A stretch of 64,000 bases of DNA from Linnemannia hyalina. Its lineage: Eukaryota > Mortierellomycota > Mortierellomycetes > Mortierellales > Mortierellaceae. The stretch covers positions 1,054,001 to 1,118,000 of the forward strand of contig JAHRHY010000003.1 in the NCBI GenBank assembly GCA_019671135.1, read 5' to 3'. The notes under the pieces are model-generated. The model did not search any database, was not told where the DNA came from, and was given only the letters and a program-made list of their open reading frames with translations. Shown piece by piece: positions 15,401 through 28,300 of the stretch (its first letter is position 1; each line of letters begins with the position of its first letter). The translations under genes and the position numbers were made by a program.

Positions 15401-17358
15401 TGTCGTGAAGAATATTTGCCATTGACGTGGAAATTTTCATGTTGGCATTCATGGCATCATCAAATGGCATGAGGGACAGTAGAAATAGGCGCCGTTGATC
15501 TTGCCTATTCAGGGTCATCATTGGCAAAAGCTGCACAAGGGTATCAAGAGCAAAGGATTGAACAGAACGATCTGCCTCTGAAGCAGCAAGAGATATGAAA
15601 GGATCCTTTGCTGCTTCAAGAAAGCTATCGCCGTCACCTTTTTTGCCTGCCTCAATGGCAACCACTCGTCGCATACTTTTCTGTGCCTCAAGACGTATGA
15701 CATTAGATGGACTTTTGGCCAAAACCAAAAGGAGATCGAATCTGGATGAGGACGCAAACGAAATGGGGTTCGAGATCGACCATGATGACAGGAAGGCCAT
15801 GAAGGACGTCTGCCAATCAGGACTGTCCCAATGAGGTGATGCTCGGACAGCGCTATTAAAAAAAGAAATATGGGGTGTCTGTTAGATAACAGTTTGACAG
15901 AAAACCAAAAAGTCCAAATTGACCACCTTGCACATGCGAGTAAACATTCATACTTACGCTTCAAATGCCATAATAGACTTGTCCAATGCAGCAATCTTGG
16001 CGGTGGATGATGATGTCATCTGGCTAATGGTGTGAGATATGAAGCTGCACCCCAAAAAGAAGGCCATTGAGGAAACTCCGAGACCCCTAAGGAATGGTTC
16101 GATCGATATCCAGATTAGAAACATGAAAAAGGGGTGAGAACTCATTCTGGTTGGAAACAACAAAACAACACCTCTGCGAAATTCATCTCAAGCACTACTG
16201 CCATACCAGTTTCCTTGCATCAAGGATGTGCATAGACGTATCATCAAAGGAGCCGGAGGGGTGGTCGTCTTTGTATTGTCCTTGCCAGCGAGCGAAGGAT
16301 CCATGAGCCACTTTTCCTTGCAGGTTTGAGCCCATGTCCTGATGGCAACATCGACAATTCGTTGGAGGTCATTGTACTCGTCGGCGTCATGGTTTTCTTC
16401 GCCTGGCAAGTCTTCCAGCCGCTATATGAAATGAAAACAATGAAAAAAGGGCGTCAGTCTAAAATCAACATGTTCTGGTAAAGATACAAAAGCCCAAGTG
16501 TTCACAGTTTCAGATTCTACCTTGTCTGAGAGGTTTTGGTTCGAAATGTCAATGTGCGCTTCTTGAACAACCATACTGGCCTTGAGCTTGGACAACTCGT
16601 CAATACCGCAAAGGACCAAAACAAGGTTGACCAGGTGAGTGAGGGCCAGAGTGGCGTTCTTGGAATAGTTGATACCCCATCGCTTCATGGAAGCGATAAT
16701 GTCGTCCTCGGAACTGCGGATGGCATCTAATAAAAAAAAGAGGCCGTAGTGAGTACCAAGAAAAGAGAACTTTTTTTTTGCGAGTTACTCGATGGAAGGG
16801 ATGGACAATGTTCTTCCTTACGGTGAAGATCGGCTGTGGCTCTTCCTTTTTCCTTGGTGACTCCGGGAGCGGCAGGCGTTTCTTCGTCTCCTTGTGACTC
16901 AGTCAGACTTGCGACATCAGCCTCGTCTACTTTTCGCTTCTTACCCGCAACCGTGGCGGAAGTACCGGCTGGAGGAAGGTAATGACGAGTACAAGTAAGC
17001 ATTTGCTGACGTTACAGGAGCCTCAAATGAGAGACTCCAAATGTCAAAGTACTGTATTATTCTTTTTCAAATTTACATAACTATGTCTTTGATACGTACC
17101 ACTTTGCTGGATTTCCGCTTCGTCCATCTCCTGGGATGACATTGCTGCGTCCTCGATATTACTTGTATGTCGGCTTACTGACCGACCTTTACCTCGACGC
17201 GCCGCTGCTCGTCCTCTTGTGCTCTGCAAATATATCAAACAAAAGGGAGGAGTGTTATTACTTGTCAAGTCGTCTAAACAACAGTTTATCGCCGTGTGCC
17301 ATTCATATTTTTATATTACGTCGGTTTTGCTTCCACTGTGTTCGCCTCGTTCTGCCAT
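12418..17358 (-). CDS. Cohesin subunit SCC3/STAG-like protein
   Basis: Thirteen exons, in coding order: 17358-17320, 17223-17100, 16968-16822, 16726-16521, 16421-16199, 16086-15958, 15852-15177, 15089-14811, 14705-14448, 14207-14031, 13939-13247, 13150-12870 and 12769-12418. The product is about 1,194 residues, the usual SCC3/STAG length. SCC3 binds the kleisin arm of the cohesin ring, helps load it on DNA, and is all-helical. Here the N-terminus is disordered and basic (TRGRAAARRGKGRS; GKKRKVDEADV). It is followed by the characteristic start of the helical body, SEDDIIASMKRWGINY..LALTHLVNLVLVLCG, resembling the DD/W-I-Y..L..L.N..L...G block of STAG proteins. A helical body and an acidic C-terminus (EEEEEDVEMEEL) complete it. 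Exon 5 needs one extra base near 16268-16285 to join KEKWLMDPSLAGKD to SGSFDDTSMHILDARK; every other junction is in phase. Similarity is weak in the middle, so another HEAT-type cohesin factor is possible. Confidence 0.65.
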
Positions 17359-18777
17359 GGTGAATCAAAATAAAACTGTGTGGAAGAAAGCGTAGAGGTG
17401 GTTGCTGTTATATGTGTATGTGTATGTGTATGCGTTTGTGTGTACGGAAGTAGGCAAAAGTGTTTTAGGTGGTGGAGTGAAAGAAGAAAAGTCAGCACAT
17501 CGCACCGGTATTTATTTGCTGGGAGGGGGTTGCCTCTGTGATCGCTAATCTCATTAAAAAAACTATCGCCACTGTTGTTTGTTCTCAATGCCTGATTGTA
17601 ATTTTCTTTTACGCCTGATTGCCATCCAGTGGCCGCTATTGTTTCAGGGCTTCATAGCAAGTAGAATAAACAAATATAGACAGCATTTTTGAAAGAGGAG
17701 GTGTTTACCAAGACAGGCACTCAAAGTGAGGTCCGTGGCATTTGTGCATGGAGGATAGTGCAAGAGCATGGTGGTAAATAACCAGTTCGTCTGTCCTCCC
17801 TATTGAATCATGCATCGGCGCTTGAGGTCTGATTGAATAATACAAGATGAGCATGACACAGGGAACAATAGGATGGTGAAGGACAGACATAGAGCAAAAG
17901 AAAAGGGAAGAGGTTATAGACAATCATCGTCCCAAATCGATAGACAGCTTTCTTTAGTTTATCTTTGTAGGCACGAGAGGGTGAAGACACGCGAAACATT
18001 CATTGCCTTATTTCTTCCTGCGTCTGCTGTTGACAATACCAACTTGCTCTTCTTTGCCCGTTCATTTGTTTAACTTGACCAGTATGCTCGTTGTTCTTCG
18101 TGCAGTACTATATCTCAGGTATAAAAGAAGCTCGCTATGCTTGTCACCTTTATTTCATAGCTTGGGAGAGTTATCATATATAAGCTCTATTGTTTCAAGA
18201 GAGACACAAATACAAAGCGAAAGGTAGGGCATGTCAACGAATGGGTTGCATTTTTGGTTGAAGAGAAAGAACAATTAGGAAAATATGATGACAAGGATGA
18301 GGAGGGAGAAGGATGGAAAAAAGGGGGGAGGTGCGGGAGGCGTTCAAGGACACAAAGAAAGTGGCAACTGTAAAAGGGGGTTTGAGCCCATTGATGAAAT
18401 GACAAGACGCGACCGAAGGATGAGCGGCATCGAGGAGGAAGGGAATATCGTTTTTTGGTTAATTGTTCCTTATCCCCATGACAATGTCGCGCCGGATACT
18501 TTTCCTTTTGTTTCCACTGTGCATGGACAGGACATGGGCTGTTATCCAGGGATGAATAGCAGCTGTCTTGGGTCATACCCCAAGCCTTTTCTTCCTTGAA
18601 GTGGAAAACAAAAGGACAAGCAGCCTGGTGGATAATTTATGTGGTATTTCAAAGGGAGCAACGCCAGCACCTTCGGCAACGAATAGTGCACCACGATTGC
18701 CCTCTTTTCGTAAAGCTTTCTTTTTTCATCAGCAACAGTCAAAAGTGGATAGTTTGGTCATTGTAGTAATAGGATCA

Positions 18778-18923
18778 GTTCTCTTTCAATCACCCTGTCA
18801 GTCTCGTATATCATACATATTAAACCACAACCATCCGTGAAGGCTTTGCAGTTCTCTTTCAATCACCCTGTCAGTCTCGTATATTATACATATCAGACCA
18901 CCACCATCAGTGAAGGCTTTGCT
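18778..18923 (+). repeat. Two tandem 73-bp repeats (plus a diverged third copy)
   Basis: Copies at 18778-18850 and 18851-18923 differ at only a few positions. Both begin gttctctttcaatcaccctg and carry an AT-rich core near tatat.atacatat. A third, more diverged copy (tctttcaatcgctcc ... atatataaatacatata) follows at about 18937-18980 and contains the best TATA-like box. The arrangement looks like a duplicated core-promoter segment upstream of the Fanzor-fusion gene. Confidence 0.8.
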
Positions 18924-18964
18924 GTTCTCTCTGCTATGTCTTTCAATCGCTCCTCTCAACCTCA

Positions 18965-18974
18965 TATATAAATA
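18965..18974 (+). promoter_or_regulatory. TATA-like box for the Fanzor-fusion transcript
   Basis: TATATAAATA is followed by the C/T-rich sequence typical of leaders in this window. It is about 850 bases upstream of the ATG at 19817, but three apparent leader introns shorten the mature distance. Assigned by motif and position only. Confidence 0.4.
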
Positions 18975-19816
18975 CATATAGTTTTGTCTCTTTCCTGCTC
19001 CTCTTTTCTTCTCTCTTTTCATCCTCATCCTTCCCTGCCAACCCTCTCATCCTTCCCCTTCCTCTTCATTGTCGACGCCTGCCTTCTACACCCATCTCTT
19101 CACACATTTTCGAACTAGTTCTATTTCCTTCCTCCTCTCCATCCACATCACACTCCAGCACGTCCTCGTCGAGACGAACACCCTCGCACTTCTCATTGCA
19201 GTCCTTCTGTGTTCTCTGCACAAAGGGATTCGCCCCACTCACCCTCTCCCCGCGTCTCGCTGCTCGTATCAAGTACGTGTTTCTTTTCTCTTTGTGTTTT
19301 TATTTCGGCTTAACTCTGCATAGGCTCACATCTTTCTAACTCAGGTACCTTACATTGCTTTCTCTTCTTGCGCTATCTCCTAGATCTCCTTGGCCTATTG
19401 TAATCTACTCCCTCTTTTCACTCCCAAACATCTTGCCCTTGATCGTTCGCGTCTGCGGCAGCAGTTACACAACTCACTTCGTCTTTTTTCGGTGAGTCCT
19501 TTGAGGCATTGCGTTACTCCGCAATCTACATACAGTCCAATGTCGACACCAAAAATATGCCAACTCACCATAATACCTCTCTTTTTTTTTTGACCGGTCT
19601 TCAGGCTCCCTCAGGGTTCCTCTTTAACTCAAGCCGACAGACCTCTTCCTCTTTCTCAAGAGCTCCTGTGTTCGACAGTACGTCTGCTGCATCCATGCGT
19701 TTTCTTTTTATCACAATGAACAGATTGATCACAACACAGCCAAAAAAACAACAACAAGCTAATATCTCCATCACTCTTCCTTGATCGTTGTCTCCATTAG
19801 AGCCTCATCCTGCGTT

Positions 19817-22800
19817 ATGGGTATTGGCGACACATTCCAGCTTCTGGAAGAGAATGCCTTCGTCCCTACGCCTTGCGATCCTCTAGGGTTCGTTCCCCAA
19901 GGCAACAAAACAGGGCACGTCGATGTACTGGCGTGGATGCGCCAGTATTTGATCGCCACCTACTGCAACATCCTCTTCAAGATCTTCAAGGAGGATAGGT
20001 TGGCTGGTCGTGTCGATTGGAATCGCTCTTTGGAAGACGATGTTGTCCGCATTGCGTCGGAGCGTCTGTCCGATGCCCTAAAGAAGCAGCTCGCCAAGAC
20101 TTTCATCCCCGGAAATGTCCTACTTCATATTGATGGGAAACACAACGATCAAAAGGCGCTTGCTCACTCGATCCGTGCTTCCAACGGCGACAAAGACAAA
20201 CGAGCTTTCTACAATAGTATGGCTAAAGTCAAGACCCTGATGGGCCCCTTCTATGGACGCAACATTCCCAAGCCCCGCTCCCGAACCACAGGGAACACCA
20301 GAGACGACGACGATGATACTCCAACGGATGGTAGAGTGCCCTACTCTGCCAGGCACAATGTCTTCCACCGCTCTACCAAGGACAAGATTGTCAAGATTAG
20401 AAAGACCATGAAGGCTCTCTGGAAAAAGGCCCACCCCATGGACGACAACATCAAAAAAGTCACTTGCGCCGCCTTGAACAACCTTGGTCATAACGTCCAC
20501 TCTTGCCGCGGCGAGGCTGACGTATGTATCTCCACTCAAGGAGGCGAGATTTACAGCTTCTCGGGCGACTCTGACTTTTTGTATCATCCCATCCATACAT
20601 TCGTCCGCAAGGATCCAAAGGACCCGACTACCATGCTGGCGTACCCGACACAAGAGGCTCGCACCTCTTTCAACCTGACTCCTGCCGGTATGGCTGCACT
20701 TGCTGTTGTCAGTCGGAATGACTATTCGGTCCATGTCCGAGGATATTCCTTGAAGAAGAACCTTAAAGTCCTCCAGTCGATTAATGGAGCCAAGCCCAGC
20801 GATGCTATCCATCTTTCCTCAGAGGTCCTAGTCACAAGATACTGCCGTGCTGTCTCCAAGCCATGGGAAATAATTAACCCTACCAGGTTCAGTTCTGCAA
20901 TGGACATTTTCGTTCATCACCAGGAAACCTTCAACAATCGTCCAGTCCCATCATCAACAATGTCATTCGATCACGACATGAGGATTTTTGAAGAGGTGTG
21001 CGACAACTATCTTCGGCACTTTCGCAACCCCGCTCTTCGTGGACCCGTATCTCTGGACAATCTGCCTCTATCTTTCTTCACGCCAAGCGTTTATACCCGC
21101 AACAGGGACAGGACAGACTTGGAAGACATAAGGACAGAGTGGCTGGAGGTTCAAAAACGCCTCCGGTTGCAAAATCGGACAGCCCTCATAGCCCCTACCC
21201 TTGTGCTTGCTCCTGCACCTGTTCCAGTCGTCCCCGCCTTGACCATGCCTGTTATCCCACGCAGGATCCCTCCTGTCGAATCTCGTCCAGGTGTATACTC
21301 GTCGGTCATGCCTTTTGTCCAGCGCCCGGCCATCTCCAACTTGACGATGCCTGTTATCCCACGCAGGATCCCTCCCGTCGAATCTCGTCCAGGTGTCTAC
21401 CCATCCCCCTTTCCAGCAAAAACTCTCCCTTTAATCATGCCGGTTATTGCGCCTCGGATTGAACCTGTCGGCTTGCTTGCTTTAGAAACTCTCTATCCAC
21501 ACCGTCATTTTTATCACGTTGACTGGCCTCGTTTGCCTATTTCAGTGTCTGACTTTCCAAGAGATCCTCACTACCGACCGCACAAGGGCTGGATGTCGTC
21601 CAACAAGTACCGCATCCGTAACTACACCATCCCGTCTGGCCCCTCTCCCTCGGCCGACGACGATGATGCGGATCAGCACCAGAGCCAGAAGAAGAAGAAG
21701 AAGAAGAAGAAGGGAGGCATACGCATGAACAAAAAACAGAAAACGGAGGAGGAGAAGCTCAAGGAGGAGGCAGTGAAGCGCGAGAAGGCAGCCGCCCGAC
21801 GACGACCCGATACGTCCAAAAAAGGCCGAACCGAGCCCAACCCTAACGCCACGCCCAAGAACGACGATCCCGCCACGATATTGGACAGGGTATTAAAAGG
21901 AAAGTACGCGCTGAACGTTCTGGAGGTTGGAACGGTCGGTCAGCGACTCAAGGACTCTATCGCCTTCCACTGCAGAAAGAACCTGCCCGAGGTCCGGGAG
22001 CGGATCTTCAACGACCTGAACGACTTTTTCCTGGCTCTGGTCAAGATCGCCACGGACGTTGTCCACGCTGCGCGAATTGCGCTATCATGCTACATCGCCA
22101 AAGTCATGTTGGAGTTTCCTGCCACCACCCAAGCTGAAATCATCGCGCGCAAGAACAAGCTGCAGGACATTGGCGACATTGGCGGAAAGCATTGGTTTGG
22201 CAGCGTACTCAATGTTATTTTTCGATGGGATCAAGCCCGCACAGGGAACCAGGTTGTTCGCGAGATTGTTGACGACTACCGTGCTCTGTGTGCTCAGGCT
22301 GGCCTTGTGCACGATCGCTGGACCGATCTTATCTCCGGCGGAATGAATTTTTTCTTGCAGCAGGTTGGCGGCGACATGGAATCGATAATCCAGGGCCACT
22401 TTCGCGGCAACATCAAGGAGCTGGTTGAGCGCGTTAAAACGACAAACCCGACATGGTGCCAGGGCGAAGGCGCTCCCCTCCTCAACGACATGTACATCAA
22501 TCCCACCAATCCTAAAAACGACAAGCACATGTTTCGCAACTATGGGATCGTTGCAGCATTCTGGACCTTGAACGCCCATCTGCCATCCCACCGACGATTT
22601 GCAATGTTTCCAAAGTACAAGCACAAGGATCTTTATGTCACCATCACGGAGAAGCACATCATGGAGACTTTACCCTTCAGACCAAACACCAGCCCTTCCA
22701 CGCTTGAATTCCTCGCTCCTTTTACTGTCCGCTCGGTCATTGCCCATCCTGGAGAACTTGTGTACCGCCTCTTCATGACCAGCACTGTCGGCTACAAGAC

Positions 22801-23828
22801 GACGTCATGTCTGATGAACCCATCTCAGTCCGGACCCGACTTTCCTCCCTTCTTTTTACCTCCAAGTGTCGACGGTGATGACTTCCAGGATGCCTACGAC
22901 GCCCTTCAGAGCGAGTATGAGATCCGTGGCAATCATGGAGCTACCCCAGCTTTCAGCCAAGCCAAGCGTAACTTCATAGCTGCGATCGACAAGGCTATCA
23001 TGGAGGCCAAAGACGTCAGATCTGCCATCAACGACGACGACCAAAACAAGGAACGCCACCGTCGTATGCATATTCTTCACGGATCAATCCAAACAAACGG
23101 TCTTGACGCCAAGCTCCACGCCTTCCACACCGCCCAAAAGAAACACCTTGCTGGAACCTACGGCCCCAAGACAACCAAGAGTCTCCTAGGCGATATCAAG
23201 ACAAAGTATCCTTCAAGAGACGAATTGCTTCGTGATCATCTCTCTCCCGAGGTGTATCGGATTGTGGCCATGGATCCAGGTCTGGCCAACACCATCACGG
23301 CTGTCATTCTCGACTCTCGCTCACCCAACAGAGTCAGAAACTTGGCAATCTCCAGTGGATCGCAGAAGGAACCAGAGCGGCACCACCGTCGAGGTCTGAA
23401 CGCCGCCAAGAGCAAGAGAGGGATCAACTTTTTGGAGAACTCCATCGTCCCCGTCGAGTTTCCTCAGTTCCGAAATACTGGAGACGATTGGGTTAATTGG
23501 TTGTGCCTGCGAGATTCCATCCGCCTAAATTGTGTGTCGGAACTTGGGGTGTACAAGCGGCTTCGAGCCTTCTATGGTTCCATCATGTTCAAAGTCAAGA
23601 ACAGGAGCTTGAAGTTGGCTCAGAACGCTACACTAAACAAGGCTGTCGGCGTAATCATCCGGTCGTGTGGAATCAAGGGCAAGTGGAGAGAGGGAGACAA
23701 TAGGGTGCGCCCCTTGTTTGTTGCTGGCGATGGCAACTTCACATCCAGGCCCGGTCGGCCCATCCGACACTTGCAGTTCTTCAAGAAGCTAAAGACCAAG
23801 GTAAGCATTATTATGTTCTCTCTCTCCT

Positions 23829-23860
<32 letters not shown>

Positions 23861-24182
23861 GGTTATTGGGTAACAAAAAGACATATCAAACCTAATGCTT
23901 ACATCTTTTCTTGTCTTTGCATAGTTGGTGGCCTTGGGGTACGTGATCGTGTCAGCTGACGAATACTTCACCTCCAAGTCTTGCTGTCAATGCCACACCA
24001 AGAGTGAGGACCATATCACCATGGAGCGTCGCTCCATCCAATGCACACAGTGCAACCGAGTCAGGGACCGTGACCATAATGGGGCGCACAATATGGCTCG
24101 TGCAGCATTGAAATGGATGACGGTCTTTTCTTGGCCTCAAGAGCTGTGTCGTCCCACCCCATCACCACAACCTCAACCTTAA
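19817..24182 (+). CDS. FEN1/XPG-type nuclease fused to a Fanzor (eukaryotic TnpB) nuclease
   Basis: Two exons, 19817-23800 and 23925-24182, give 1,413 residues. The start ATG gives MGIGDTFQLLEE, the canonical MGI opening of XPG/FEN nucleases. FEN-like acidic residues are all present: D36, D106 (HIDGK), E233/D235 (GEADV), D251/D253 (SGDSDFL) and D302 (NDY), the last within a helix-hairpin-like segment as in FEN1. A Pro-rich linker (about 475-560, with an internal duplication) and a Lys-rich, NLS-like tract (about 620-650) lead to the Fanzor part (about 690-1413). Its RuvC-I is VAMDPGLAN (D1153). The segment LFVAGDGNF then precedes ADEYFTSK (E1341), a C1348-C1351/C1368-C1371 zinc ribbon, and RDRDHNGAHN (D1378). 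Fanzors are RNA-guided DNA nucleases carried by eukaryotic mobile elements. No guide RNA, terminal repeats or partner gene were identified. All catalytic positions of both nucleases appear intact and the frame is unbroken. It may be mobile or a domesticated host protein. Confidence 0.88.
21239..21420 (+). repeat. Tandem 102-bp coding duplication in the Fanzor-fusion linker
   Basis: Segments beginning ttgac at 21239 and 21341 are near-identical over about 55 bases, 102 bases apart, encoding two copies of MPVIPRRIPPVESRPGVY. A third, weaker copy (LIMPVIAPRIEPVG) follows. The duplication keeps the frame and lies in the presumed flexible linker between the two nuclease halves. Confidence 0.9.
23801..23924 (+). 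other. Intron of the Fanzor-fusion gene with 29-base T run
   Basis: GTAAGC donor and CATAG acceptor. Splicing joins FFKKLKTK to LVALGYVIVSADEY in frame. A run of T at 23832-23860 lies just upstream of the acceptor region. The intron separates the RuvC core strand from the exon that encodes the alternative Glu and zinc ribbon. Confidence 0.85.
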
Positions 24183-24760
24183 CAGTCATGTTACTCACTA
24201 GGCGCCCCTTGCTGGGACTGCTCATTGTTGATATTAGATGTTCAATTACGTTTCTTCTAATAAATCTTAATACTTCACTGCCATGTGAGTATCAAGTTGC
24301 CGTATCTCTCTCTAGCCAGATGATCATAGGCCTTCAATGTTGTTTTTTGTCCGTTTGCTTCATCAATGGATGGCGGGATGGAGAACCCATGCCAACCATA
24401 AAGACATCAATCCATCCCTCCTCAGTCTCCCTTGTCTTCTTTGTCTGTTTCCTTCTCTCCCTCCCTCCTCGTTGTGGCGGCTTTCAGTCGATCCGGATAC
24501 TCTTAGCCATGCTACTCTACTGATCAAAGGCCACGCGTTGCGGACAGGGTTCCTCAGATCACGTTCATATCTTAGCTTTGAAGACCACATGGGACTACGC
24601 CACCATTCGCGCCTCGATTTTCGCGCTTGAAGTATCATAGCTTAAGATCTGGATGTTCAATTGACCGTTGTTGCTGCAACACGAGAGTTTAGCCCGCATT
24701 GTGGAATGAAGTGATAGAAAATCAAATTAAAAAGTGAATGAAACTATGCGAAATCAAGCA
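24183..24760. other. 3' flank of the Fanzor-fusion gene
   Basis: No gene seen. AATAAA-like signals occur near 24259. A Fanzor guide RNA would be expected in or near this flank by analogy with other loci, but no strong stem or conserved element could be recognised by eye. Confidence 0.5.
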
Positions 24761-24870
24761 ATCTAAAAGCCCCAGGGCCGTCATGATCCCGTATCCCCTG
24801 GTGACGAGAAATCCTGTAGCCACGATGGACATAGGAATGCCTGCCTTCAAGAAATCCAAAGTAGCCTCCT
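24761..24870 (-). pseudogene. Orphan C-terminal fragment of an SLC13 phosphate transporter
   Basis: Read on the minus strand, about 36 codons (KEATLDFLKAGIPMSIVATG, then FLVTRGYGIMTALG) match the last exon of the intact transporter at 25329-25486 (TKDFLKTGVPLSLVATG, then VVITMGYGIMLALGF). Roughly 60% of residues agree and the frame is open, but the stop found in the intact copy is lost. The rest of the gene is absent on either side. It is a diverged paralogue remnant between the Fanzor-fusion gene and the intact transporter. Confidence 0.75.
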
Positions 24871-25328
24871 TAAAATAATAAAATTGTGATGCTCGAAAGA
24901 AAGAATAAACAAGGGTTTTCTCTTCTTTTTACAACAGCAACTTTGAACAACTGTCTCCATGGAATGGGAGGTTCACCTCTTGTTCTATTTGTTCATAACA
25001 CAACACACTCCAACTCACACATACTCATACTCAATCTGCACCTTGTTTTTCATTTCACCATCCCTGGATGCTTTGTATGAGTAGTTTTCCTGTGCATGTT
25101 CGCCGAAGCTACGTGTGCACTTGTATGGATGAACGGTCGTTTTTCAGAGTGGCAGTGAAGAGGAGAGCATATCCAAATATAGAGGGTTGACGATGGGTCG
25201 TGTAAAACACGTGTGCAATTAAATAATAGTAATTTCAATAAAGCGAGAAGGCAACGGGTGATAATAAATATCGAGCAATGGTTTGCCGAAATGAAAGCGC
25301 GTTCGCCTTAATGATACTACGTTCATAT
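24871..25328. other. 3' flank of the phosphate transporter gene
   Basis: AT-rich sequence downstream of the transporter on the minus strand. No gene is supported. Confidence 0.6.
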
Positions 25329-28300
25329 CTAGAATCCAAGAGCCAACATGATACCGTAGCCCATGGTGATAACTACGCCTGTCGCCACTAAAGACAAGGG
25401 AACACCTGTCTTCAAGAAGTCCTTCGTGGATAAGAAAGGAGTGCCCAACTCGTCAGTTACACTAATAGCCGCCATATTAGGGAATCCTGACACTAATGGC
25501 GTTGAGAGACGATTGGGAAGAAAAGAAGTAGGCGAGGAAAAAAAACGAAAAAAAAAAAAGAGTTAGAAACATACAATTTTTTTTAGGAAGATTGGCCGAG
25601 AGACGCGTCTGATCGCGCGTATAGTCAGGAGACAAGGCCCTGGAAGGTCCACACAAGAAAACATACCTGGAAGACCCATGGCAGCACTGCAGATAAGGCC
25701 AGCGCCCATGACGAGGATTCTGGGGTGAGGATCGGGTAAGGTAGCACCAATCTGGGCGACAATTGGTAGAATGATCAACGCCGCGACAGTGTGAGAAATA
25801 AACGTGGCGATAACAAGCGTCAGTCCCGAAAAGATCACAAGGACAACCCAGAGCGAGAATCCCTCGACATAGTCCTGAACGGCCTCAGCAATCATGTGCA
25901 ACAGCCCTGACGACTCGACAGCCTTTCCGAGAGCAATTCCGCCCATGGCGAGGATGATAACCGTCCAAAGAAAATTGTTAAAGTCCTCCTTGGTGAGGAT
26001 TCCAGTTCCGAAGAAGGCGAGGAGGGGGATGATGGCAATGAGTCCCATATCTCCAAAGAGCCACTCGAGCTGGTGTTCAAAGCACCAGAGGAGGATGGTG
26101 ATGGCAGTCACGACGCAGACAAAGACTTGGGTGCCGGTGATGGGATCCTTGGTTGAGCGGATGGTGGAGATGGTGGGAGTGTTGGATGAGGGCTGGTAAA
26201 CCCAGAGGAGAGCACCCCAGATGGCGAGATCGCAGACCAAGCAGATAGGAAGAGCGACGGTGAACCATTCGAGCCAGCTGGGGGCAGGGTGCATGTACTC
26301 AATGGCAATGATATTCTGGGGCGAGCTGATAGGCGAGGCCATACCACCGACGTTCGAGGCCAGGGCAATGCCGAGAATGAGGCACTTTGCAAACGACGAG
26401 CCAGGAGGCAGCGTGCGAAGAATCGGCTAAAATGAATGCGCACATACAACAAAAAAGCAGGATCCATACCAAAAGGGTCTGTTAGCCAATGGAGACAAAT
26501 CACTCCGTCCCTTCACACACACAAAGATAAACATTAATTGCAAGATAGCAAAACCGTACCTGGATAAGAGAAAAGCAAAGGACAGGGGCGGCGACGTTAC
26601 TGATCCACATACTGGCAACAGTGGCGACAAGCATGTTGGCAAGGAGGACAGCGCTAGGATGAGTGCCGGCCTTGGAAAGGACAACAGTGGCCATGGCTTT
26701 GGCAATGTGGAACTTGCTCATGGCTGCAGCGACGGCAAAACCTCCAAGCAGCAGCATGATGACTGGGGAAAACATAAGCGAAAAGATTTTCTTGGCGGCG
26801 GCATGCGAATCCAGTCGTGTATGGTCCTCATCGTCCGCCCGCATGACTCGGAGCATGACCACCAATAGAGGGACCAACAGCGATGTGACAAACAAGGGCA
26901 GCGACTGTGGATAAAAAGTCCGATCGAACGACACATCGCAAAATAACGCAAGGTAGATCGGAAATCAGATAGAGGGGAGGGAAGGAAAAAATGAGGAGCA
27001 GCAATGCGTCAGTAAAAAAGAGCATGGCAAATTGAGGAGATAGACAACGTAGTGAGAACAATTTGTTTGGGTGACTCGGGAACCAATGAAAAAATAAAAA
27101 ATCGTCATTGTTACCTCCGTGGCCCAGAGCAAAGAAGCAAAGACAAGAATGGCAAAGCAGTTCTGCTGCTCAGGTCCCTCGAAAAGTTCGATGTTGAGGA
27201 GTATGGCAAAGACGAGACAGCAAAGGAGGAGCGTCCAGACATTGCCAGTGAGCCACTCAGGGAATTGAATTGATCCAAACGGCGTGCTAATGTTGATAGG
27301 TCCCGTCTTCAACGCAGACGAGGGTCTCACACCAACAGCCTGGCTCTTGCGCTCGATACCAATCATGTCTCGCCAGACAGTGTTGCGCTCCCAGACCATA
27401 TGTTCCTTGAGGTGCATCTTGAGCGAACGTTTGGCAACCTCGGTGTCGCCATTGGTAAAGATCCTGGCGTAGATATCACGAACACGGTCAATCTGTCCCT
27501 GCAGCTTTTCGGTCGTCTCCTGCTTGAAAGGGTAGGCCTGAAGGACGACTTGGTTCATGTAGACCTTCTTAGTGTTGTTCTCAGAGATCTTGTCGTACTT
27601 TTTCAGGATCTTTGAGAATCCGGTGCAGTTCAGCTTGGCATAGGCCTGCAGCTCTGATAGGTTGACAAACATCTCGATGCAATTATGGCGGAATCGCATC
27701 TTTTCGTGCTCCATCTCGGGATCGAACCACATAGACTTGGCGTCATCCTCATCATTGTCGTCCTCGTCGTCCTCGTCGCGGGGAGTCTCGGGTTCGACAT
27801 CGGTGACAATGCTGGTCGAGATTTGAGATGACGTTCCGACTTCTCCGTGCCCTGGAACAAAGGTCGATGACGACGAAGGGTTGGGAACATGACCTACATC
27901 CTGAACGGCCTCTGTTGCAGTATTGTGAGCAGCGGCGTCGGCGTGAGCGAGGGCCTCATCATATCTCCAGCTTCCTGAACGCGCCAAGATCGAGTGTCGG
28001 CTTGCCCTGCTGTTGTTGCGGCTCCTTGTCTTGCGCACACTGCCGCTATTGGGGGCCTTGGATCCAGAGCCGGCGGAGCGAGAGGGGATGGAGGGATCAA
28101 AGTTCTCGACAAACTCAATGTCAGCGGCCAGGGCATCGACCTCGCCGTAGAGCTCCCGCTCCTTCTTGAAGTAAAAGGATATGATCTTTTCCAGCTCCCT
28201 GTCAAGGGCGGGCAAAAACATGTTGTTGGCCCTTGCTCTGGCCTGTGACCGTGCGCCAGTTGAGAGCAAACCGGAACGCTCGTTTGGCTCGCCTTGGTTG

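Follow-up and report, generated by a model that had tools for sequence, protein, structure and literature searches.

The gene and its structure

The window analysed here, a stretch of 64,000 nucleotides (nt) within contig C23 of a 51.5-Mb assembly of the soil fungus Linnemannia hyalina, carries on its forward strand a gene (19817..24182) that appears to join two nucleases in a single polypeptide, a FEN/XPG-type domain at the N-terminus and a Fanzor-type RuvC nuclease at the C-terminus. From the ATG at 19817 to the end of the stop codon at 24182 it encodes 1413 residues. A sequence-only reading had already described this interval as one protein, and the start, the length and every residue position that it cited were found correct. 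It had also taken the frame to be unbroken over 1,413 codons; that part gives way to two exons (1328 and 85 codons) split by a 124-nt intron, whereas the join between the two halves does lie inside a single exon. In what follows, loci of the same genome are labelled L0xx and proteins P000x.

Exon 1 is identical, up to the splice site, with the public gene model P0001 (KI688_008249, Linnemannia hyalina, Mortierellaceae), which is annotated as a hypothetical protein with a zinc ribbon as its sole recognised feature; read without splicing, the frame of exon 1 meets a stop at 23959. The 1328-codon open stretch far exceeds chance: among 1000 mononucleotide shuffles of the exon, none was open for more than 302 codons. 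Since the FEN-Fanzor junction is encoded, together with D1153, within exon 1, the fusion into one polypeptide is independent of splicing; E1341, the four zinc cysteines and D1378 are encoded by exon 2. In its fraction of G and C by codon position, the FEN part (0.54/0.40/0.62) resembles the Fanzor part (0.54/0.40/0.64), and residues 339-591 have a flatter profile (0.57/0.47/0.51). The coordinates of all features are collected in Table 1. Within the proline-rich linker, an 80-nt stretch is duplicated in frame (window 21224-21405, 86%, spacing 102 nt).

Table 1. Features of the fusion gene and its surroundings, in window coordinates.
Feature	Position	Strand	Basis
5' segment; pieces 18411-18449 and 18506-18601 kept with the ribbon and 3' end in deleted copy L039	18411..18601	+	
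Exon 1, 1328 codons, residues 1-1328 (FEN/XPG domain, linker, most of the Fanzor half)	19817..23800	+	open frame identical with P0001
FEN/XPG nuclease domain (predicted), residues 1-338 (M1-G2, D36, D106, K113, R120, E233, D235, D251, D253, D302)	19817..20830	+	profiles, conservation
Residues 339-591: FEN C-terminal stretch (to ~400), then proline-rich linker with internal duplication; missing from the P0002 model	20831..21589	+	
Basic linker, residues 592-690; its run of eight lysines (KKKKKKKK) is a possible nuclear localisation signal	21590..21886	+	sequence
Fanzor REC/WED-like part (label positional only) and RuvC-I (D1153-P-G at 23273-23281)	21887..23800	+	
Intron, GT-AG (GTAAG...CATAG), 124 nt, phase 0	23801..23924	+	comparison with P0001; possible 99-nt counterpart in L022
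Exon 2, 85 codons, residues 1329-1413: shifted RuvC glutamate E1341, C4 zinc ribbon, final RD	23925..24182	+	PF07282, motifs
~80-nt tail from the stop codon to the estimated element 3' end; candidate omegaRNA region	24183..24262	+	conserved in relics

The N-terminal half as a FEN/XPG domain

Membership of the N-terminal half in the FEN/XPG superfamily is supported by profile searches together with the conservation of the active site in relatives. A profile built from 13 N-terminal domains (those of the window protein, P0003 and eleven copies in the same genome) matched RAD2 best in the Protein Data Bank (PDB; expectation value, E, 1.2e-11), followed by FEN1 (1.5e-8), EXO1 (1.1e-5) and GEN1 (3.5e-4), with XPG also matched, and the FEN domain of the single relative L022 reached RAD2 at 4.2e-5 and FEN1 at 8.2e-5. 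The Pfam domain XPG_I was found in 11 of the 13 members at E up to 1, the best value being 7.2e-5.

The other FEN domains are 18-34% identical to that of the window protein. Among the domains covering each position, M1-G2 is kept in 10/10, D36 in 11/11, D106 in 12/12, K113 in 11/12, R120 in 12/12, E233 in 12/13, each of D235, D251 and D253 in 13/13, and D302 in 12/12; all seven acidic and both basic arch positions are present in the window protein. These positions presumably correspond to D34, D86, K93, R100, E158, E160, D179, D181 and D233 of human FEN1, an equivalence for which the alignments with RAD2 and FEN1 give part of the basis. The sequence-only reading had seen the residues of the FEN/XPG fold preserved here (the MGI start, D36, D106, E233, D235, D251, D253 and D302), and both the profile of the relatives and their conservation agree with it.

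The ratio of nonsynonymous to synonymous substitution rates (dN/dS) in the FEN domain is 0.16 for the pair L022-L023 and 0.35 for L017-L025. For L016-L022, L016-L023 and L019-L029, which are 57-60% identical, dN is 0.33-0.34 and dS exceeds 2, near saturation, and most pairs are saturated. A simple pattern for a PCNA-binding motif had no match in P0001-P0004.

The C-terminal half as a Fanzor nuclease

Fanzors, the eukaryotic homologues of TnpB, are marked by a DPG at RuvC-I, by a glutamate placed six residues ahead of a C4 zinc ribbon and by an RD at the end (PMC10711439; also PMC3627910; statements attributed to published work here refer to the available parts of each text). All are present in the window protein: the RuvC-I aspartate stands in D1153-P-G, the shifted glutamate E1341 lies six residues ahead of the zinc finger (E1341 x6 C1348), and the C4 ribbon reads CCQC and CTQC, then an RD that ends at D1378. 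Moreover, Pfam recognises PF07282 (Cas12f1-like_TNB) in exon 2 with E 1.7e-10. In searches of the PDB with full-length P0001, the ribbon region matched a chain named Transposase (2.3e-5), TnpB-like protein L79 (0.0033) and TnpB (0.0044); a profile of the Fanzor half recovered no Fanzor or TnpB from the PDB, just two designed knot proteins. Among relatives, the RuvC-I motif is DPG in L038 and P0003, and DGG or DLG in L019, L022, L028 and L021.

The spacing pattern DPG-x(120-160)-E of PMC10711439 is unmatched in its strict form and matches once relaxed to 200. Since the strict pattern was designed for finding Fanzor-like prokaryotic TnpBs, the mismatch is not treated as excluding a Fanzor, and the looser spacing of PMC3627910 is satisfied. 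Overall, the assignment of the C-terminal half to the Fanzor1-type RuvC nucleases is supported by its motifs; the motif check and PF07282 bear out the earlier claim that the RuvC site, the ribbon and the final aspartate (D1153, E1341, four Cys, D1378) are kept. The dN/dS comparison revealed no selection on this half, the sole close pair having too few changes (0.004 vs 0.003).

Relatives and the pairing of the two halves

P0002, a protein of 1160 residues from Mortierella sp. GBA39, has the same FEN-Fanzor order, and the two halves have diverged about equally from P0001 (94.4% identity over residues 1-338; 92.7 and 96.3% over the Fanzor parts). The more distant P0003 (1115 residues, 29% identical) comprises a FEN domain, an acidic linker and a Fanzor half in the same order and ends near the position of the window's intron, and P0004 of Mortierella hygrophila (320 residues) is a partial FEN half only.

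Across the L. hyalina genome, 105 FEN hits, 98 of them from one search and seven from further places, were merged into 86 loci and set against 91 ribbon hits (90 above the Pfam cut-off). A FEN locus lies upstream on the same strand and within 5.5 kb at 62 of the 91 ribbon hits, and 59 of these 62 pairs are spaced 2815-3384 bases, against a chance expectation of ~0.4; the control arrangements gave three pairs with FEN downstream and one with FEN on the opposite strand. The pairs cannot be counted as independent: three groups, of 12, ~12 and ~8 loci, score the same or nearly so, near-identity having been shown by DNA for the first alone. Further, possible GT-AG introns preserve the frame of L022 at three of four junctions tested; they measure 115 nt (one among five candidates), 92 nt and 99 nt, and the 99-nt one coincides in position and phase with the intron of the window gene. 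The two-domain order that the sequence-only reading had noticed thus recurs in P0002, P0003 and the 62 ribbon loci, and the window gene is no single case; it is one member of a large family of predicted FEN-Fanzor fusions with dozens of loci in L. hyalina. Among IMG/VR viral contigs, scans with P0003, the L022 FEN domain, the L019 Fanzor half and the window protein turned up no relatives.

Mobility and element ends

The family of L038 has 12 copies, L038 included, that are 99-100% identical over at least 5.5 kb, from which it follows that this family has moved recently. L022 and L023 have ~8 kb in common at 94.9-98.6%. Target duplications of 9 base pairs (bp) surround L018, L022 and L023, three of the five elements inspected at both ends, while L020 has 8 bases and L019 none that is clear; L022 and L023 combine the duplication with ends of the MULE/MuDR type, and L018 has the duplication. 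On its opposite strand, L022 carries a MULE-transposase-like piece (PF10551, E 1.5e-4, below the Pfam cut-off) and a SWIM finger (E 1.3e-4). None of the 23 MULE-domain hits in the genome coincides with a ribbon hit, the nearest lying 5.6 kb away (C5:1655039) and the next 17 kb, in a search that missed the weak piece of L022 and that decayed transposases would escape.

The target just outside the left ends of L018, L020 and L022 includes GTGACGT, and the 3' ends of L018, L019, L020, L022, L023 and L025 include TTCGGTGACGTA(A/G)TT; these motifs may reflect an insertion preference or nesting. A repeat of ~1.7 kb (98%) is common to L017 (1185-2941) and L028 (5751-7511) and overlaps L038 1-471 at ~87%. 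The window itself holds, at 1528-1711, a piece of the 12-copy FEN-Fanzor element, matching L038 over its first 183 bases at 96%.

No second intact copy of the window gene's close family was found in this genome. Relic pieces of the window element lie on six contigs (C4, C5, C14, C19, C20 and C48) at 69-92% DNA identity, and those reaching the 3' side terminate at 24242-24265, ~80 nt past the stop codon. The tail is retained in L034, L036 and L039, where the adjoining coding sequence is gone. In Spizellomyces Spu-1, the 80-nt stretch between the stop codon and the element 3' end is the omegaRNA (PMC10432273), a parallel which suggests that the tail of the window element may be an omegaRNA region too. 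L039 (positions 1-651; C5:1167480-1168130) is a deleted copy of ~0.4 kb made up of two 5' pieces, the ribbon and the tail, and resembles the 'ghost' elements described for Spu-1 (PMC10432273).

Ends modelled on those of the relatives were not found around the window copy, and its flanks showed no terminal repeats, no recognisable target duplication and no convincing inverted repeat; five 14-base inverted matches between the flanks were dismissed as T-rich or isolated. Pfam scans of eight window frames, beyond which no wider search was made, gave no MULE transposase at this copy, and Rfam at its gathering scores had no match in window 17000-27000. A 73-base tandem repeat (93%) occupies window 18776-18921, ~0.9 kb upstream of the start codon. 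Downstream, a diverged 87-base duplicate (24771-24857 and 25336-25422, 74%) lies beside a minus-strand frame resembling a sodium:sulfate symporter.

A proposed mechanism and its alternatives

What could a Fanzor gain from a flap nuclease of its own? We propose, at a rough probability of 0.45, that the protein is a two-nuclease Fanzor in which an N-terminal FEN/XPG domain, a proline-rich and basic linker and a Fanzor1-type RuvC domain would act in sequence, by a guided cut, the removal of a flap and a repair that copies the element in. The Fanzor half, with an RNA from the 3' end of the element, would invade a vacant copy of the element's site, forming an R-loop, and cut it. Cutting of the non-target strand would leave a 5' single-stranded end adjoining duplex, which is a FEN substrate; the tethered FEN domain could then take off the 5' flap and resect in the 5' to 3' direction to leave 3' tails. 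Such tails would favour repair templated by the element-bearing chromatid, so that the element is kept or copied in. A parallel exists in the role proposed for TnpB in the copying of insertion sequences through recombination (PMC10432273, discussion).

The fusion, its conservation, the catalytic positions kept in both halves and the mobility of the relatives are directly supported at the level of sequence. We infer the steps that join them, namely RNA guidance, the substrate, flap removal and the outcome of repair. At slightly less than even odds, these proteins may then constitute a separate RNA-guided class in the Mortierellaceae, possibly wider, that unites guided cutting with 5' flap removal or resection in one protein and biases repair toward its own copying, with many families in one genome, some of them recently mobile. 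The role of Fanzors for the host or the element is called unknown in the discussion of PMC10432273. With a Fanzor lineage that has its own end-processing nuclease, one could test the concrete hypothesis that the purpose of RNA-guided cutting is to have the element copied in the course of repair. If true, it would offer a natural programmable cutter with a resection-type nuclease, relevant to editing that depends on homologous repair.

Several observations weigh against this proposal. The window protein by itself revealed no FEN domain in Pfam or in a PDB search, and a 4-sequence profile of the window and three relatives had FEN1 as its top match, yet with an E of just 0.046. AlphaFold models of the FEN part and of P0002 were of low confidence (predicted local distance difference test scores, pLDDT, of 34 and 30) and were discarded. 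The FEN exon of L038 had no match to any Pfam XPG model, and the catalytic positions have their exceptions, E233V in L024, K113M in L025 and E233Q in the 12-copy family of L038, which may indicate that FEN sites are weakened in some families. In P0002, the fourth zinc cysteine is a tyrosine (C1371 to Y), so that its ribbon is not a C4 ribbon, and residues 339-591 are missing from the gene model. An upstream FEN was not found for 29 of the 91 ribbon hits, and a downstream ribbon hit is missing at 24 of the 86 FEN loci. At seven of these 24, a hit to the RuvC part lies downstream on the strand of the FEN locus, and at L037 the Fanzor half is present; C2:2066158, where XPG_I scores highest in the genome, is probably the FEN1 of the host itself. 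Finally, the 3' tail folds no better than its shuffles (z 0.49), for which reason an omegaRNA in it is suggested rather than shown.

An alternative that we consider unlikely, while giving it real weight, is that the FEN domain serves transposition itself, trimming the 5' flaps and short gaps at joints left by a transposase so that the 9-bp duplication seals, with the Fanzor half separately keeping the element. Integration joints bear 5' flaps, and the 9-bp duplications at three elements, together with the MULE transposase and SWIM pieces on the opposite strand of L022, point to movement of a cut-and-paste type. However, only one family showed transposase pieces and the MULE hits of the genome lie at least 5.6 kb from ribbon hits, though decayed ones could escape, and this explanation does not account for FEN being joined to the Fanzor instead of the transposase.

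It is more doubtful still that the domain is a catalytically weak binder of DNA junctions, retained for holding the opened target. The result that most favours it comes from L038, which lies outside the 13-domain set and retains the other eight compared positions: it has Q at E233, yet its 12-copy family still spread. At least seven copies match its FEN exon (L038 1495-2172) at 100% as protein, Q included, and hence the change spread along with the element. Against this, the other families, though only 18-34% identical to the window protein in this domain, keep their metal-binding positions nearly invariant, which argues for catalysis.

FEN/XPG enzymes also act on hybrid and bubble structures, and with both domains on one polypeptide the FEN domain might process guide RNA or RNA-DNA hybrids, by trimming the 5' end of an omegaRNA precursor or removing R-loops. 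This we hold to be very improbable: SpuFz1, which has no such domain, edits when given protein and omegaRNA (PMC10432273), so that Fanzor activity needs no FEN partner in cis. That two adjacent genes were wrongly joined, or fused by chance, is suggested by the stops that separate the FEN and Fanzor frames in other families, but can be set aside as scarcely credible given the uninterrupted 1328-codon exon, the same order in P0003, the 62 of 91 pairings at a near-constant distance and the possible introns of L022, across which the frame continues at three of the four junctions tested.

Comparison with known systems

No paper listed in the literature searches was recognised as reporting a FEN/XPG domain on a Fanzor; the searches did not reach subscription papers or most preprints, and an earlier description is possible. 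The only text found that pairs the two names is one sentence in PMC11071296 on 'Fanzor flap endonuclease homologs (Fendons)' in two animal-virus contigs. It differs from the proposed two-nuclease Fanzor in that the available text describes no fusion, alignment or fungal case, and the name is possibly a loose one.

The C-terminal half of the window protein is like the Fanzor1 proteins SpuFz1, GtFz1 and PpFz1, which are eukaryotic RNA-guided endonucleases, in its DPG, its final RD and the glutamate that precedes the C4 ribbon by six residues (PMC10711439). The window element is also like Spu-1 in its conserved noncoding stretch of ~80 nt from the stop codon to the element 3' end (PMC10432273). 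Unlike the window protein, SpuFz1, GtFz1 and PpFz1 are described, in the parts available, with REC, WED, RuvC and TNB, and in PpFz1 a cyclophilin-binding insertion, and with no added FEN/XPG nuclease. Closest in setting are the mucoromycete elements ROr-4, PBl-3 and MCi-4 with MuDR-like ends (Bao and Jurka 2013, PMC3627910), which carry fungal Fanzor1 proteins and have 9-bp duplications as do L018, L022 and L023. They differ in that their N-terminal halves are called highly variable, and the main text, as available, is without 'FEN', 'fusion' or 'nuclease domain'. Finally, the N-terminal domain has in common with FEN1, Rad2(XPG), EXO1 and GEN1 the MG start, the seven acidic positions, the arch lysine and arginine and a region past the last aspartate; unlike all of these, it is joined to a Fanzor.

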